Positions 48,635 to 54,631 of a DNA stretch of 64,000 nt are shown piece by piece. The notes below the pieces were generated by a model that saw only the letters and a list, made by a program, of their open reading frames with translations, did not search any database and had not been told where the DNA came from. How positions within the stretch are numbered: position 1 is the stretch's first letter; each line of letters starts with the position of its first letter. The stretch is from Yersinia bercovieri ATCC 43970. Its GTDB lineage: Bacteria > Pseudomonadota > Gammaproteobacteria > Enterobacterales > Enterobacteriaceae. A program made the translations under genes and the position numbers. The DNA lies in the NCBI RefSeq assembly GCF_013282745.1, contig NZ_CP054044.1, positions 2,976,001-3,040,000 on the forward strand, read 5' to 3'.

Positions 48635-49447
48635 TCAGATATAAGAAGGGCGGTCGTTTTTCGGTTCAGAACCTAAGGTTCCTAATACCGTTTTGCCGAT
48701 CTCACGGGCAGAAATCACTGCCTGACGGACTGCGCCAGAATCACCGGAGATAACCAGAATCACTTCGTTACTGAAGCTGGTGCCTTGTGCCGGCGAGCTG
48801 TACGCCACCACGTCAACATTGGCGGATTTCACGGCGGTATCGGCCATCAGCACCCCAATCGAAGCTGGCGCACCGACTATCACGCCACAAGAGCGGCCCA
48901 GTGGTGCGCCGAAGGCTTTTTCTAATGCATGACTGGCGCGGGCGCTGTATTGCAGCTCAATGTGGCCCGCTTCATTGGCGTAAACGTCGCCGAATGTCCG
49001 ATCCAGCTCTTTCAGTGCCACTTCCACGGCGCGTTTGACGTCAGAAACATCATCACCGCCGAAGATAATCAGCGAGCCATGACCGGCGCCGCCTTTGGTA
49101 TCGCGGGGTAACTCAATACTGACCACTTCGGTATTGGTGGCTTTTACCGCTTCATCGGCCGCCATAATGTGTGGGCCGGCACCAGTACGCGCGCCCAGAA
49201 TGCCGATGGAGCGATAGCGTTTTTCCAGCTTCATTGCGTCTAGCAGGGCGCTATCGACGTTGGCTATCACCAGTCCGACCGTGTCACCGATCGCGGTTCC
49301 AACAAATTCCGTTAAACTGCAAGTTTTCTCAGCCATAGCCGTATCTCGTTGTTTATGAGAGGGTTGCGTAGAAGACGCCGGAGCGTGCTCACTGACTTTC
49401 GCTATCACCTGCGCCATGATTTGGTCGACCAGGTCATTGCTTTTCAT
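48635..49447 (-). CDS. pduB: PduB shell protein (tandem BMC), with internal PduB' start
   Basis: A trimeric shell protein of 270 residues with two BMC domains (about 45-150 and 155-260). The first 37 residues form an extension whose N terminus ([20 protein letters not shown]) is thought to connect cargo to the shell. An in-frame ATG at 49336 ([18 protein letters not shown]) marks the start of the shorter form PduB', which in Salmonella is also made. Its start ATG overlaps the pduA stop as ATGA. Confidence 0.97.
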
Positions 49448-49758
49448 TCGTTATTTCCCTTTGATAAGCTGCCCTTTGGTAACCGGCCCTTGGGTAAAAA
49501 AGCCTCGACATCGGTATGTGGGCGCGGAATAACGTGGGTTGATCTCACTTCGCCCACTTTTGCGGCCGCGCTGGCACCGGCATCGGTGGCCGCTTTAACC
49601 GCCCCGACATCACCGCGGACGATGACGGTCACCAGACCCGAGCCGATCTTTTCGTAGCCCACTAACGTCACATTGGCCGATTTCACCATGGTGTCAGCGG
49701 CCTCAATGGCCGCGGTCAACCCTTTGGTTTCCACCATTCCTAGTGCTTCTTGTTGCAT
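49444..49758 (-). CDS. pduA: PduA major shell protein (BMC) with repeated C-terminal tail
   Basis: The first gene of the pdu operon, a hexameric BMC protein whose pore admits propanediol. [20 protein letters not shown] and the pore loop YEKIGSGLV are standard. The protein is 104 residues, about ten longer than Salmonella PduA. The extra end reads [17 protein letters not shown], encoded by three 15-bp tandem units at 49453-49497. The basic tail faces away from the BMC core by family structure. The ATG has GAGG at suitable spacing. Confidence 0.97.
49453..49497 (-). repeat. Three tandem 15-bp units in the end of pduA
   Basis: On the minus strand the units are TTACCCAAGGGCCGG, TTACCAAAGGGCAGC and TTATCAAAGGGAAAT, which encode [10 protein letters not shown] and LSKGN. 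Being in frame and a multiple of three, copy number could change without breaking the gene. Confidence 0.85.
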
Positions 49759-49844: not shown

Positions 49845-49930
49845 AATATACAAACAAGCAATGAAAAAGAATGGCTGTATTGAATTTACTGGCAGGAATG
49901 GTTAGCGACTAAATAACAAAATATTGTCAT
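49845..49930 (-). promoter_or_regulatory. pdu operon promoter with candidate PocR operator
   Basis: Read towards pduA, the 18-bp motif ATGACAATATTTTGTTAT occupies 49930-49913. After exactly 62 nt comes TATATT at 49850-49845 as -10, with CCATTCTTTT starting 39 nt after the motif at the -35 position. The -35 is poor, as expected for an activator-dependent promoter. The same arrangement occurs at the cob promoter and, with one nt more, at pduF. The remaining 49931-50243 gap is AT-rich with no gene or other signal I can support. Confidence 0.6.
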
Positions 49931-50243
49931 CATAATGGGCTAATGGAGTGTTTTTTATAGGTATTTCACTTCTCTTTCATGGTAATAACTGGTTATTGAA
50001 TATTCAGAATTACAATTAAGTAGGTGACAGCGCATATTTATTTTGCTAATCACGCGCCTGCCCAGTAAATAAAGTGTCTGGCTGTGCGCATTAAATATCA
50101 AGCGATGGGGGTGGGGATGTTAGCGGCAAAAGTGCGAGCCTGATAACAATAATAGAAAGAATAAACAGCAAGAAAGTCATATTGGTGAATAAAGCATAAA
50201 AGTCTCTATTTACACGGGGTTGATCCTGATTTTGTCGGCAGCA

Positions 50244-50330
50244 ATGACAATAATTTGTTATTGAGAGCTTAGTTTTTATTTAATGAATCACCAATCACGA
50301 CAACACTTTCATTTTGCGCCTCTTTATAGT
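50244..50330 (+). promoter_or_regulatory. pduF-pocR promoter with candidate PocR operator
   Basis: ATGACAATAATTTGTTAT at 50244-50261 matches the pdu motif at 17 of 18 positions, in the direction of pduF. TATAGT at 50325-50330 lies 63 nt downstream as a likely -10. The leader to the pduF ATG is about 75 nt. Because pocR lies beyond pduF, this site could provide autoregulation. Confidence 0.55.
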
Positions 50331-50407
50331 GGCTGAGTCAAGGGCCGTGCATTACTTCATCTACTGTTAGGTAGATTGATCATAATAATCACAAGCAGGG
50401 TAACTCT

Positions 50408-51223
50408 ATGAACGATTCACTCAAGGCTCAGTGTATTGCAGAATTTCTCGGTACTGGGCTGTTTTTATTTTTTGGTATTAGTTGTCTGGCGGCACTGAAA
50501 GTGGCGGGGGCCAGTTTTGGTTTATGGGAAATATGTATTGTGTGGGGGCTGGGGATTTCACTGGCAGTCTACCTAACCGCCGGTATTTCCGGCGCTCATC
50601 TCAACCCAGCCATTACCATTGCTTTGTGGCTGTTTGCTTGCTTCCCAGGCCATAAAGTCATTCCTTACTCTATTGCACAAATCGCGGGTGCTTTTGGCGG
50701 CGCGGCACTCTCCTATATGCTATATCACAACTTATTTACTGATTTTGAAACCGCACATCAAATGGTGCGCGGCAGCATGGAAAGTCTGCAATTAGCCAGT
50801 ATTTTCAGTACCTTCCCATCACCGGCTATTAGCGTATGGCAGGCCGCATTTGTTGAAATCATCATCACCTCAATACTGATGGGGCTAATTATGGCCCTGA
50901 CCGATGATGGTAATGGTGTGCCACGTGGAGCATTAGGGCCATTGTTGATTGGTATTCTGGTGGCGGTGATCGGGGCGTCTACCGGCCCATTAACTGGTTT
51001 TGCCATGAATCCGGCGCGTGATTTCGGCCCTAAATTATTTACCTTCTTTGCTGGTTGGGGGAAAATCTCCATGACCGGTGGCCGCGATATTCCCTATTTT
51101 ATCATCCCTATTGTGGCCCCTATTATTGGTGCTTGCCTGGGTGCGGCGGTCTATCGTTTCTTTATTGGCAAAAATCTGGCATGTAACAGCTGTAAATTAG
51201 AGGATGAAGAAGCCACTCATTAG
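50408..51223 (+). CDS. pduF: Propanediol diffusion facilitator
   Basis: An aquaglyceroporin-type inner-membrane channel of 271 residues with six membrane segments. The two NPA half-helices are in GAHLNPAITIALW near residue 65 and FAMNPARDFGPKLF near residue 200. GGRDIPYFIIPIVAPIIGACLG precedes the charged cytoplasmic C terminus. It admits 1,2-propanediol and glycerol. Transcribed away from pduA and ahead of pocR, as in Salmonella. Confidence 0.96.
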   Translation: MNDSLKAQCIAEFLGTGLFLFFGISCLAALKVAGASFGLWEICIVWGLGISLAVYLTAGISGAHLNPAITIALWLFACFPGHKVIPYSIAQIAGAFGGAALSYMLYHNLFTDFETAHQMVRGSMESLQLASIFSTFPSPAISVWQAAFVEIIITSILMGLIMALTDDGNGVPRGALGPLLIGILVAVIGASTGPLTGFAMNPARDFGPKLFTFFAGWGKISMTGGRDIPYFIIPIVAPIIGACLGAAVYRFFIGKNLACNSCKLEDEEATH

Positions 51224-51246
51224 TCGTATATCAGTTAACGCGGTCT

Positions 51247-51322
51247 CCTCATCTTACGACTGTCACTCTATCGTTAGATGAGGAAATTTCGTGATCCATT
51301 TACCTTAATGGATCATTTATTA
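51247..51322 (+). terminator. Two hairpins after pduF
   Basis: CCTCATCT at 51247-51254 pairs with AGATGAGG at 51276-51283, extended by ACGA/TCGT, without a T tract. TGATCCATT at 51292-51300 pairs with AATGGATCA at 51307-51315 and is followed by TTTATT, the more likely terminator. The rest of the gap to pocR (51323-51532) is AT-rich and presumably holds a pocR promoter; no operator copy above 12/18 was found there. Confidence 0.6.
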
Positions 51323-51532
51323 TCCCCTGTAGATTATGACTCTGGTAAGGTGAACTGTTATTTGTCTTCATTTCACAGGAGAGTCAGTCTTCACAGGGAA
51401 ATAGGTTTTTTCTCCTAACTAACGGGAATGAAATATAACAATGCGTTAACACATTAAACATCACAGGGATGAGTTATAGCAGTAAACAAAAATTTAATAA
51501 CAATAAATTAAAATTAACTGAGAGGTTTTATC

Positions 51533-52435
51533 ATGATTTCTGCCAGTTCTCTAAACTCAGAGCTCATAAATAAAATCGCGCAGGATTTTGCTCAGGCAAC
51601 CGGGTTGGCCGTAGTCGTGGTCAATATTCACGGTGAAGAGATTTCCGATTTATTTAATTTCACCCCGTTTTGTCAATTGATGCGCCAAGACCCGGTTAAC
51701 CACCTTCGTTGTCGAATGAGTGATCGCTGCGGTGGCCTTGAGGCCTCAAAATCCAATGAGCCATGTATTTACCGCTGTCATGCCGGATTGACGGATTTTT
51801 CTATCCCTCTGGTGATTGCCGGCCATTTAGTTGGTTTTGTTCTATGTGGTCAGGTGCGGCTGCATTCTGATGTTTATCTAATTGATATTTTGAATGTTGA
51901 TAACCACTGGCAGCAGGATCCAGCACTGATGGATGAGTTTCATAATGTGCCGATAATGGATTTCTCGCGGGTGATCGCCTCGGCGGATTTACTTAAGCTG
52001 ATTGTCGAAAATTGCCTGAAAAAGCACCTCAATTTTGTGGTAATTAATGACAATATGGGCAGCAAAGAGCCGGGCAAGATACGGCCTGTTCATCCACATG
52101 ACAGCAAAATGAAGAAAGTATTACGCTATATTGATACCCATCTGTCGGAGGAGCTGCGGCTAGAAGATGTGGCGAGCAAGGTCTATCTCAGCCCCTATTA
52201 CTTCAGCAAATTATTTAAAAAATATCAGGGTATCGGGTTTAATGCCTGGGTGAACCAGCAAAGGATGGCTAATGCCAGAGAGATGCTGCAACACAGCGAT
52301 TGGAGCATTGCCAGCATCGCCAAAAATCTGGGGTTTTCGCAAACCAGCTATTTCTGTAAGGTGTTCCGTCAGACCTATAATGTAACACCGCAGGTATTTC
52401 GTTCACTTTCATCTGATCGCAGCGAAATGGAATAA
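51533..52435 (+). CDS. pocR: PocR, AraC-family activator of the pdu/cob regulon
   Basis: A 300-residue regulator. Residues 1-165 form the PocR sensory domain, with cysteines in FCQLMRQDPVNHLRCRMSD and CIYRCHAGLTDFSIPLVI. Residues 195-300 form the AraC DNA-binding domain (VLRYIDTHLSEELRLEDVAS, KVYLSPYYFSKLFKKYQGIG, IASIAKNLGFSQTSYFCKVF). In Salmonella PocR responds to propanediol and activates both pdu and cob. The gene lies between its two target operons. GAGAGG lies about 8 bp before the ATG. No terminator is apparent after it. Confidence 0.96.
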   Translation: MISASSLNSELINKIAQDFAQATGLAVVVVNIHGEEISDLFNFTPFCQLMRQDPVNHLRCRMSDRCGGLEASKSNEPCIYRCHAGLTDFSIPLVIAGHLVGFVLCGQVRLHSDVYLIDILNVDNHWQQDPALMDEFHNVPIMDFSRVIASADLLKLIVENCLKKHLNFVVINDNMGSKEPGKIRPVHPHDSKMKKVLRYIDTHLSEELRLEDVASKVYLSPYYFSKLFKKYQGIGFNAWVNQQRMANAREMLQHSDWSIASIAKNLGFSQTSYFCKVFRQTYNVTPQVFRSLSSDRSEME

Positions 52436-52526
52436 CTGCCATTGAGCTAATATTATTCAATCTTGCCATGCGTTTTGATTTTCTATATTAAAAAACAAAC
52501 TAAAAATTAACTATTTAAAATGATTA

Positions 52527-52544
52527 ATGACAATATTTTGTTAT
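52527..52544 (+). promoter_or_regulatory. Distal candidate PocR operator at the cob promoter
   Basis: ATGACAATATTTTGTTAT, identical at all 18 positions to the site upstream of pduA. It lies 76 bp upstream of the proximal cob copy, in the same direction. It is 91 bp past the pocR stop. Confidence 0.55.
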
Positions 52545-52602
52545 CCTTGGAAAAGAGATAGGCGTCATAACTTACTGTTTTTAAATCTTATTTAAGAGTG
52601 TC

Positions 52603-52688
52603 GTGACAATATTTTGTTGTGCGGGCGCAAGAAAATCATCAGCAAAAAAGGAAATTCACCATTTTTTCTGAACAGAAAGGCGTATATT
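52603..52688 (+). promoter_or_regulatory. cob operon promoter with proximal candidate PocR operator
   Basis: GTGACAATATTTTGTTGT at 52603-52620 matches the pduA motif at 16 of 18 positions. After 62 nt comes TATATT at 52683-52688, and CCATTTTTTC starts 39 nt after the motif, just as CCATTCTTTT does at pdu. Transcription would begin near 52695, leaving a leader of over 500 nt to cbiA. Confidence 0.6.
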
Positions 52689-52878: not shown

Positions 52879-52942
52879 GCCAGACGCCGAGCGATAAATT
52901 GATTTGTTACTAATTTCAGAGCAATTTTTTATATATCGAAAT

Positions 52943-53097
52943 GGTCATGTTATGCGCAAAAGCATAACTGGGAAGGGGGTGACAATCCCCCGCAGCCCCC
53001 GCTGCTGTGATGCTGACGAACCCGCTGTTACCACTGATCCATCGGATTGGGAAGGTTGCGGGTGAGAGTGACGCTAAGCCAGAAGACCAGCCAGATC
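52943..53097 (+). ncRNA. Cobalamin riboswitch
   Basis: The leader has the conserved order of a cobalamin-sensing RNA: a P2-like hairpin TTATGCGCAAAAGCATAA, GGGAAGGGGGTGACAATCCC with the core GGTGNNAATCC-type segment, GCTGCTGTGATGCTGACGAA, the TTACCACTGATCC stem, TTGGGAAGG, GAGAGTGACGC, and finally the B12 box AGCCAGAAGACCAGCC at about 53077-53092. It lies upstream of cbiA, the normal target. Excess adenosylcobalamin is expected to lower expression of the operon. Confidence 0.93.
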
Positions 53098-53191
53098 GGT
53101 AAAAGATATTCAACTCCTTCGGTGGGAAGCGGGTTGTCATCAGATGCGCGCAGCGGTGACGTTGCGTAGGCGCACCTTTTTGACACTGCAT

Positions 53192-53218
53192 ATCCCGCTT
53201 GAAATGGCGGGATTTTTT
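53192..53218 (+). terminator. Riboswitch-linked intrinsic terminator abutting the cbiA start
   Basis: ATCCCGC at 53192-53198 pairs with GCGGGAT at 53207-53213, followed at once by a T run to 53218. The cbiA ATG begins at 53219. The GGCGGG in the 3' arm is the only purine-rich sequence at ribosome-site distance, so the hairpin may block both elongation and initiation. Confidence 0.8.
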
Positions 53219-54631
53219 ATGCAACGGTCAGGCAAACACGCTTTTATTATCGCGGGCACCGGCAGCGGATGTGGCAAAACCACCATGACGCTGGGTATCC
53301 TGCGCGCCTTGATTAATCGCGGATTAGCGGTGCAGCCGTTCAAGGTGGGGCCAGACTACCTCGATACGGGCTGGCATACCGCCGTCAGTGGTGTGACGTC
53401 ACGCAATCTTGATGCCTTTATGTTGCCCACCGCCACCCTGAATGGGCTGTATAAGCAGCATATGCGCCATGCCGATGTGGCGGTCATTGAGGGCGTCATG
53501 GGGTTATATGATGGTTACGGCACTGACCCCGACTATTGCAGCAGTGCCGCAATGGCCAAGCAGCTGGGCTGTCCGGTGATCTTACTGGTGGATGGCAGGG
53601 CGGTATCGACCTCAATTGCCGCCACCGTGATGGGCTTCAATCAGTTTGACCCCAATGTGGTGATTGCCGGGGTGATAGTGAACCGCGTCAATTCTGACCA
53701 TCACTATCAGCTGCTGCGCCACGCCATCGAACACTATTGCGGTATTCCGGTATTGGGGCGTCTGCCGGTGATGGATGATGTGGCGCTACCATCGCGCCAT
53801 CTAGGACTGATCCCGGCGCAACCGTGCGGCGAGGCGATGCGGGGTAAAAACCGGCCGCCCGATAGCGACCCTCGCTGGCAGCGCCTGGCACAGCAGATTG
53901 AGGCAACCCTTGATCTCGACCAGCTATTGGCGCTGACCCACTGCTCAGCACTGCCCGCAGGCACCCCACCTGAATTACCTCCCCAGAGACTGGCCGAGGG
54001 CCTGACACTGGCCCTCGCCGAGGATGAAGCCTTCAATTTCTACTATCCCGATAATCTGGATCTGCTTGAGCAGGCCGGGGTGCGCATCCAACGTTTTAGC
54101 CCGCTGCATGACCACCAGTTGCCCGCGTGCCAAATGATCTATCTAGGCGGCGGTTATCCAGAGATCCACGCCGCCAAATTGGCTGCCAACACGGCGATGC
54201 GCGGGGCGTTACAGCAGGCTCACCGCCAACAGATCCCGCTGTACGGCGAGTGTGGCGGCTTGATGTATCTCGCCGATGGCTTAACCGACCAACAGGGGCA
54301 GCGCCATCCGATGGTGGGAATTTTGGCCGGCGAGAGCCGGATGGGAGAACGGCTGGCCCGCTTTGGTTACTGTCAGGCCGAGGCGCGCAGCGACACTTTA
54401 TTGGCGGCGCAAGGCGAGATCCTGCGGGGCCATGAATTCCACTATTCCGATTTTACCAGCGCACTGACGCCGGTATTTGATAGCAGCAAGTGGCGCGATG
54501 GGATGGAAATCCAGCGCTGGCAAAGCGGCTATCAGGTGCAGCGCACCCAAGCCAGTTACCTGCATATCCATTTCGCCCAACGCCCCGGTTTACTGAATGG
54601 CTGGCTAAGTGCCGCCCGGAGCCTGCTATGA
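53219..54631 (+). CDS. cbiA: Cobyrinate a,c-diamide synthase
   Basis: Amidates the a and c side chains of cobyrinate using glutamine and ATP. ATG 53219 (MQRSGKHAFIIAGTGSGCGK) gives 470 residues; the open frame to 53144 passes through the terminator and is not needed, and ATG 53204 is a less likely alternative. The N-terminal P-loop is GTGSGCGKTTMTLG, followed by KVGPDYLDTGWHT and EGVMGLYDGYG. The C-terminal amidotransferase has the cysteine in YGECGGLMYLADG near residue 350. First gene of the operon; its stop overlaps cbiB as ATGA. Confidence 0.95.
   Translation: MQRSGKHAFIIAGTGSGCGKTTMTLGILRALINRGLAVQPFKVGPDYLDTGWHTAVSGVTSRNLDAFMLPTATLNGLYKQHMRHADVAVIEGVMGLYDGYGTDPDYCSSAAMAKQLGCPVILLVDGRAVSTSIAATVMGFNQFDPNVVIAGVIVNRVNSDHHYQLLRHAIEHYCGIPVLGRLPVMDDVALPSRHLGLIPAQPCGEAMRGKNRPPDSDPRWQRLAQQIEATLDLDQLLALTHCSALPAGTPPELPPQRLAEGLTLALAEDEAFNFYYPDNLDLLEQAGVRIQRFSPLHDHQLPACQMIYLGGGYPEIHAAKLAANTAMRGALQQAHRQQIPLYGECGGLMYLADGLTDQQGQRHPMVGILAGESRMGERLARFGYCQAEARSDTLLAAQGEILRGHEFHYSDFTSALTPVFDSSKWRDGMEIQRWQSGYQVQRTQASYLHIHFAQRPGLLNGWLSAARSLL

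Follow-up and report, generated by a model that had tools for sequence, protein, structure and literature searches.

The genes pdu - pduF - pocR - cbi/cob follow each other in this order in the window, that is, the whole stretch of 64,000 nucleotides of Yersinia bercovieri ATCC 43970 that was analysed (contig NZ_CP054044.1, positions 2,976,001 to 3,040,000 of the forward strand), and a short DNA element recurs at the promoters of pduA, pduF and cbiA. The question raised by this locus is whether the element is the site of action of the AraC-family activator PocR. The original prediction had described an 18-bp operator at a fixed distance from the three promoters and had taken it to define a probable PocR regulon. 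As discussed below, the element is in all likelihood the operator of PocR, acting as proposed at pduA, pduF and cbiA, and the prediction as a whole is partly supported.

Genes and sites of the locus

The genes concerned, together with an RNA element, are as follows.

49444–49758, minus strand: microcompartment shell protein, named PduA in the original prediction (best NCBIfam match EutM, 121.2 bits, below the cut-off of 133)
50408–51223, plus strand: pduF, MIP family channel (TIGR00861, 220.9 bits)
51533–52435, plus strand: pocR, AraC-family activator (NCBIfam equivalog TransRegPocR, NF047788.1, 563.7 bits, cut-off 500)
52925–53109, plus strand: cobalamin riboswitch in the cob leader (Rfam RF00174, 111.6 bits)
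53144–54631, plus strand: cbiA, cobyrinic acid a,c-diamide synthase, first gene of the cob operon (NF002204, 541.3 bits)

The pocR product contains the Pfam PocR sensory domain (PF10114) and an AraC helix-turn-helix. The recognition-helix stretch SPYYFSKLFKK is identical in all of the 15 PocR proteins inspected, while SQTSYFCKVFRQ is present in 11 of them and SQASY in the other four (loci L067–L070). The true start of cbiA is probably further in than 53144, because the family match begins at residue 33. The riboswitch lies between the proposed cob promoter or start and cbiA, so the cob operon would be under two layers of control, with PocR and cobalamin acting in series.

The sites at the three promoters, very probably PocR binding sites as predicted from the letters of this genome, and the elements around them are listed below; offsets (+21, +52, +53) are counted from the proximal site.

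49845–49850, minus strand: probable -10 of the pdu promoter, TATATT
49860–49877, minus strand: weak motif copy (+53) of the pduA promoter, over its -35 position, containing CCATTCTTTT
49913–49930, minus strand: predicted proximal PocR site at pduA, matching perfectly
49979–49996, minus strand: degenerate PocR-like site in the distal position at pduA, differing from the broad motif by 3 mismatches and best in the reverse orientation
50165–50182, plus strand: candidate distal site of the pduF promoter, weak (5 mismatches), 79 bp from the proximal site
50244–50261, plus strand: predicted proximal PocR site at pduF, with 1 mismatch
50297–50314, plus strand: weak motif copy (+53) of the pduF promoter, over its -35 position
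50325–50330, plus strand: probable -10 of the pduF promoter, TATAGT
52527–52544, plus strand: predicted distal PocR site of the cbiA promoter, perfect match
52603–52620, plus strand: predicted proximal PocR site at cbiA, with 2 mismatches and 76 bp downstream of the distal one
52624–52641, plus strand: weak third copy (+21) of the cbiA promoter, at a profile peak at +21/22
52655–52672, plus strand: weak fourth copy (+52) of the cbiA promoter, over the -35 position, containing CCATTTTTT
52683–52688, plus strand: probable -10 of the cob promoter, TATATT

The three proximal sites had been described earlier with the same coordinates, strands and mismatch counts, and TATATT, TATAGT and TATATT do stand 62, 63 and 62 nt past the sites of pduA, pduF and cbiA, respectively. 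The picture of one site per promoter is right in that these sites exist but is incomplete, since distal and proximal sites and two weaker copies were found; the perfect site at 52527–52544, 76 bp upstream of the cbiA site, had been overlooked. Four close sites thus lie within 2.7 kb. At up to 3 mismatches the palindromic pattern occurs four times in the window against 0.29 expected, a number reached in 0 of 100 shuffles. The 66 bp between the distal and proximal pduA sites recur in relatives, the distal pduF candidate is better in Enterobacteriaceae than in the window, and the +21 copy of cbiA is scarcely recognisable from the window's genome alone.

Conservation and co-occurrence with pocR

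In the 4.4-Mb genome, the palindromic pattern is found at three places with up to 1 mismatch, all at the pdu/cob locus, and at seven places with up to 2 mismatches, four of them at this locus; of the three outside places, one is between two unrelated genes and two are inside unrelated reading frames. The motif is, as the prediction required, not common away from pdu/cob at up to 1 mismatch. At up to 3 mismatches there are 50 places versus 43 for a reversed-pattern control, and only close matches count because this number hardly exceeds the control. Background frequency at 3 mismatches is also what speaks for the explanation that the sites are nothing but chance similarities of A/T-rich intergenic DNA, and this explanation has to be weighed against the conservation of the sites.

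For this, 72 loci were fetched, of which 58 (L016–L073) were used together with the window to give 59 pocR loci; the other 14 (L074–L087), distant and mostly partial matches, were dropped. A broadened motif, ATRRCAAWWWTTTGYTAT, served for both the locus counts and the Yersinia genomes. At up to 2 mismatches it is present in 55 of 57 pduA-pduF spacers and in 46 of 52 pocR-cbiA spacers, counts that are not independent because many of the loci are close relatives, so the expected conservation in related species was found. The pduA-pduF spacer was taken as one region here, and its two promoters were separated in the covariation analysis. At the same threshold the motif is absent from the coding regions of pduF (0/57) and pocR (0/59). 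Random spacer copies with the same dinucleotide statistics as the real spacers contained a site in 15/1140 (pduA-pduF), 2/1040 (pocR-cbiA) and 4/1140 (pduF-pocR) cases. These low counts and the spacing kept in an unrestricted histogram (see below) refute chance similarity for the distal and proximal sites, and its probability is negligible.

The spacer between pduF and pocR has a site in only 3 of 57 loci at up to 2 mismatches, so autoregulation of pocR via the motif is not supported. This near absence fits a gel shift described in the part of PMC10433801 consulted, where the pduA promoter region was bound by PocR and the promoter of pocR was not; the same source places the action of PocR upstream of pduA and pduF.

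Individual loci depart from the general picture. The site (up to 2 mismatches) is missing from the pduA-pduF spacer of L051 (K. pneumoniae) and L064, and the cob site is missing from L025, L029, L059, L066, L068 and L073. The cob proximal copy is poor (4–5 mismatches) in many Citrobacter, and two Citrobacter loci (L025 and L029) have no good cob PocR site, with pocR and the pduF site intact. In Aeromonas sp. RU39B (L066), pocR adjoins cbiA and the cob site pair is degenerate, with the 75 bp spacing kept; pduA and pduF were not found within the fetched stretch. The Sodalis-like loci L067–L070 carry a variant cob proximal site, e.g., ATAGCTAAAAAGTGTTAT, and SQASY, not SQTSY, in the second helix-turn-helix of their PocR; their pduA proximal sites are nearer the usual motif than their cob proximal sites.

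Exact ATRRCAAWWWTTTGYTAT matches follow pocR. Among 25 Yersinia genomes they are present in all 18 with pocR and in none of the seven without it, and 48 of the 49 exact sites lie less than 3 kb from pocR, the remaining one being at a contig edge. Places with 1 mismatch in these genomes number 11 near pocR and 20 elsewhere by the 3-kb rule, and one of the latter (G004:C56:81) shares its contig edge with the stray exact site. A wider regulon was looked for at the three outside 2-mismatch places of this genome and at four of the 20 distant 1-mismatch places in Yersinia, and no link to a propanediol or cobalamin gene was seen at these places. Furthermore, CRP-like sites gave weak matches only, with 2–3 mismatches to TGTGAN6TCACA.

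Spacing, direction and the weaker copies

An open search at the pocR loci revealed paired sites. In the unrestricted spacing histogram, the pduA-pduF spacer shows its largest peaks with 17 pairs 65–67 bp and 25 pairs 78–79 bp apart, the smaller recurrent spacings including 144 bp (5 pairs); in the pocR-cbiA spacer the largest peak is that of 33 pairs 75–78 bp apart, one pair is 67 bp apart, and the smaller recurrent spacings include 40 (8), 21 (4), 60 (3), 16 (3) and 98 (3) bp. For assignment of pairs to each promoter, the permitted spacings were preset from this open search and weak rows were dropped (L029, L050 and L059 for cbiA; L023 and L067–L070 for pduF; L050 and L061 for pduA). The distance from distal to proximal site is then 65–67 bp at pduA, 78–79 bp at pduF and 75–78 bp at cbiA (67 bp in L023), the pduA and cbiA spacings lying about one helical turn apart; no pduF site pair was obtained for the Sodalis-like loci L067–L070.

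The distance to the -10 played no part in the choice of the proximal site. A -10-like TAnAKT hexamer stands 62–64 nt past it in 46 of 49 cbiA promoters (62 nt in 40 and 63 nt in 6), 51 of 52 pduF promoters (63 nt in 45 and 64 nt in 6) and 54 of 55 pduA promoters (63 nt in 31, 62 nt in 17 and 64 nt in 6). One of the three cbiA rows without a -10, L033, has the +21 copy wrongly entered as proximal.

These distances can be compared with footprints at Pcob of Salmonella typhimurium, for which PMC11264322, in the passages available and citing Rondon and Escalante-Semerena 1996, gives two PocR boxes, one of 20 and one of 48 bp, with 52 bp between them and 9 bp between the second box and the -35; removal of either box impaired or abolished the response, so that both are needed. 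The cob site pair agrees with these two boxes, as they are quoted there, within a few bp. In the Salmonella loci the distal and proximal cob sites are 75–76 bp apart versus 72 bp between the left edges of the boxes, and the distal site starts at about -168, with box I at about -165 by the quoted lengths; this is our own arithmetic, with the start assumed 12 nt after the first base of the -10, and the comparison depends on the authors' placement of the -35. The site at 52527–52544 corresponds by spacing to box I of Salmonella as quoted, and by the same arithmetic box II would span the proximal copy and the one at +21. The literature searched contained no PocR consensus sequence; one may be printed in Rondon 1996 or Chen 1995. 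The passages searched of a paper on L. reuteri PocR gave no binding site.

Read as letters, the element is nearly palindromic, its arms standing 11 bp apart in the manner of sites for dimeric helix-turn-helix proteins, and it had been suggested that a dimer binds one such site. The same symmetry would suit an operator for a different conserved regulator, either a dimeric repressor or a global one, acting on the same promoters. The symmetry is present in the letters and is not reflected in the variation of the sites, because there is no excess of covariation between the arms and the centre is polar. Among 132 distinct sites, positions 4/15 are complementary in 60 versus a shuffle mean of 57.7, and complementarity is rarer than in shuffled sites at positions 8/11 (26 versus 45.2) and 9/10 (47 versus 68.5). 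In addition, a profile of cob distal sites finds proximal sites directed toward the gene in 23/23 cases at pduA, 24/30 at pduF and 19/27 at cbiA; the opposite orientation scores better in 8 of the 27 cbiA and 6 of the 30 pduF proximal sites, and pduA distal sites are split 8 to 11. The dimeric palindromic operator is rejected, as neither compensatory change in the arms nor a symmetric centre was found, and with it the suggestion of a dimer on one site. The PocR site has a direction, with exceptions, which is expected for one AraC-type domain with two helix-turn-helix motifs.

Besides this lack of symmetry, another regulator is contradicted by the exact sites, which track the presence of pocR over the 25 genomes, by the agreement of the cob sites with the PocR boxes as quoted, and by pocR being the sole regulator gene identified between pduA and cbiA in the window; it is very improbable. 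The regulon proposed for PocR, with a shared operator at a fixed distance from three promoters, is supported: the sites are conserved, they occur together with pocR, and they agree with the Salmonella boxes and gel shift.

The weaker copies are less certain. A profile trained on the cbiA and pduF distal sites only was slid downstream of the proximal site, and in all three promoters its two best shared offsets are +21/22 and +52/53; column-permuted profiles match the better peak in 68 of 2000 cases and both peaks in 1 of 2000. When the loci are split into Yersinia, Enterobacteriaceae-type and other loci, the offset of +52–54 ranks 1–2 of 80 and that of +20–22 ranks 1–4 of 80 in 9/9 group-promoter cases. 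Against permuted profiles, +53 stands out in each group (4, 6 and 3 of 1000 as good, in the order given), whereas +21 stands out only in the other loci (388, 101 and 2 of 1000). The decamer CCATTYTTTT, noted before as common to the pdu and cob promoters at the -35, is indeed present and lies within the +53 copy, the weak motif copy being the cause of the sharing.

There is about an even chance that these copies are ordinary promoter sequence, namely an A/T-rich upstream element and a poor -35, whose likeness to the motif comes from chance or composition. Each of them is weak in any single sequence, the +21 peak is within the control in Yersinia alone, and an activator over -39 to -22 would clash with sigma; moreover, the +53 copy is apparently unprotected by PocR alone, because the box II footprint as described in PMC11264322 stops 9 bp before the -35. 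On the other side are the coincidence of both peaks in three promoters, which permuted profiles hardly ever reproduce, and the high ranks of both offsets throughout the three groups of loci. It is possible, though doubtful, that every PocR promoter carries four copies of one directional operator at a roughly constant helical phase, namely the distal and proximal copies and those at +21 and +53. The +53 copy would then have taken the place of the -35, PocR and sigma would compete for it or share it, and propanediol might move PocR between copies.

Proposed activation and known systems

PocR binding, activation and the response to propanediol are taken from the Salmonella papers in the parts available, and the sites, their conservation, spacing, polarity and co-occurrence with pocR were computed here. 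We infer from both that PocR behaves in the same way in this genome, including how it recruits polymerase, the help given by the distal site and the start sites. PocR, stimulated by 1,2-propanediol, would occupy the distal and proximal copies upstream of pduA, pduF and cbiA and recruit RNA polymerase to promoters with a fair -10 and no good -35. Each copy would be a directional site for one AraC-type domain with two helix-turn-helix motifs and not a symmetric dimer operator. The proximal copy, 62–64 nt before the -10, would be centred at about -83 for a start 12 nt past the first base of the -10, and the weaker copy 21 bp downstream (centre about -62) probably completes the proximal footprint, so that polymerase would be recruited from about -83 and about -62; the distal copy, about 6 or 7 helical turns further upstream, would help activation.

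PocR has been made into a propanediol sensor and is used to control microcompartment formation, according to the parts of PMC4245221 and PMC11264322 consulted, and a searchable consensus and layout are now at hand for this activator. With them, what was known as two footprinted boxes in a single organism becomes a rule that can be tested on many pdu/cob clusters. The functions of the distal site and of the odd -35 can also be tested directly.

The boxes of MarA, SoxS and Rob are polar sites of about 20 bp, each bound by one domain with two helix-turn-helix motifs. The PocR site resembles them in length, polarity and the type of domain, and differs in its near-symmetric letters and in its multiple spaced copies. 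The operators of AraC include direct repeats 21 bp apart near the promoter (araI1-I2) and a distant half-site (araO2). The PocR arrays share with them the 21-bp direct repeats, the distant site and the protein family, and differ in that the proximal PocR copies are about two turns further from the -10 than araI1-I2. Furthermore, the distant site of the AraC system serves a repressing loop, whereas the distal box of PocR, as far as described in PMC11264322, helps activation. The nearest known system is Pcob of Salmonella typhimurium itself, with two boxes upstream of cbiA at a similar spacing, both needed there according to the passages quoted above. In comparison with those boxes, the element described here is an 18-bp directional motif which also stands at the promoters of pduA and pduF and recurs across about 59 loci, and box II as quoted is seen here as the proximal copy and, 21 bp downstream, a weak one. 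PocR was known before, as were the two boxes at cob and the control that it exerts on pdu and cob; what is added to this system is the consensus, its distribution across about 59 loci and the layout of the array.
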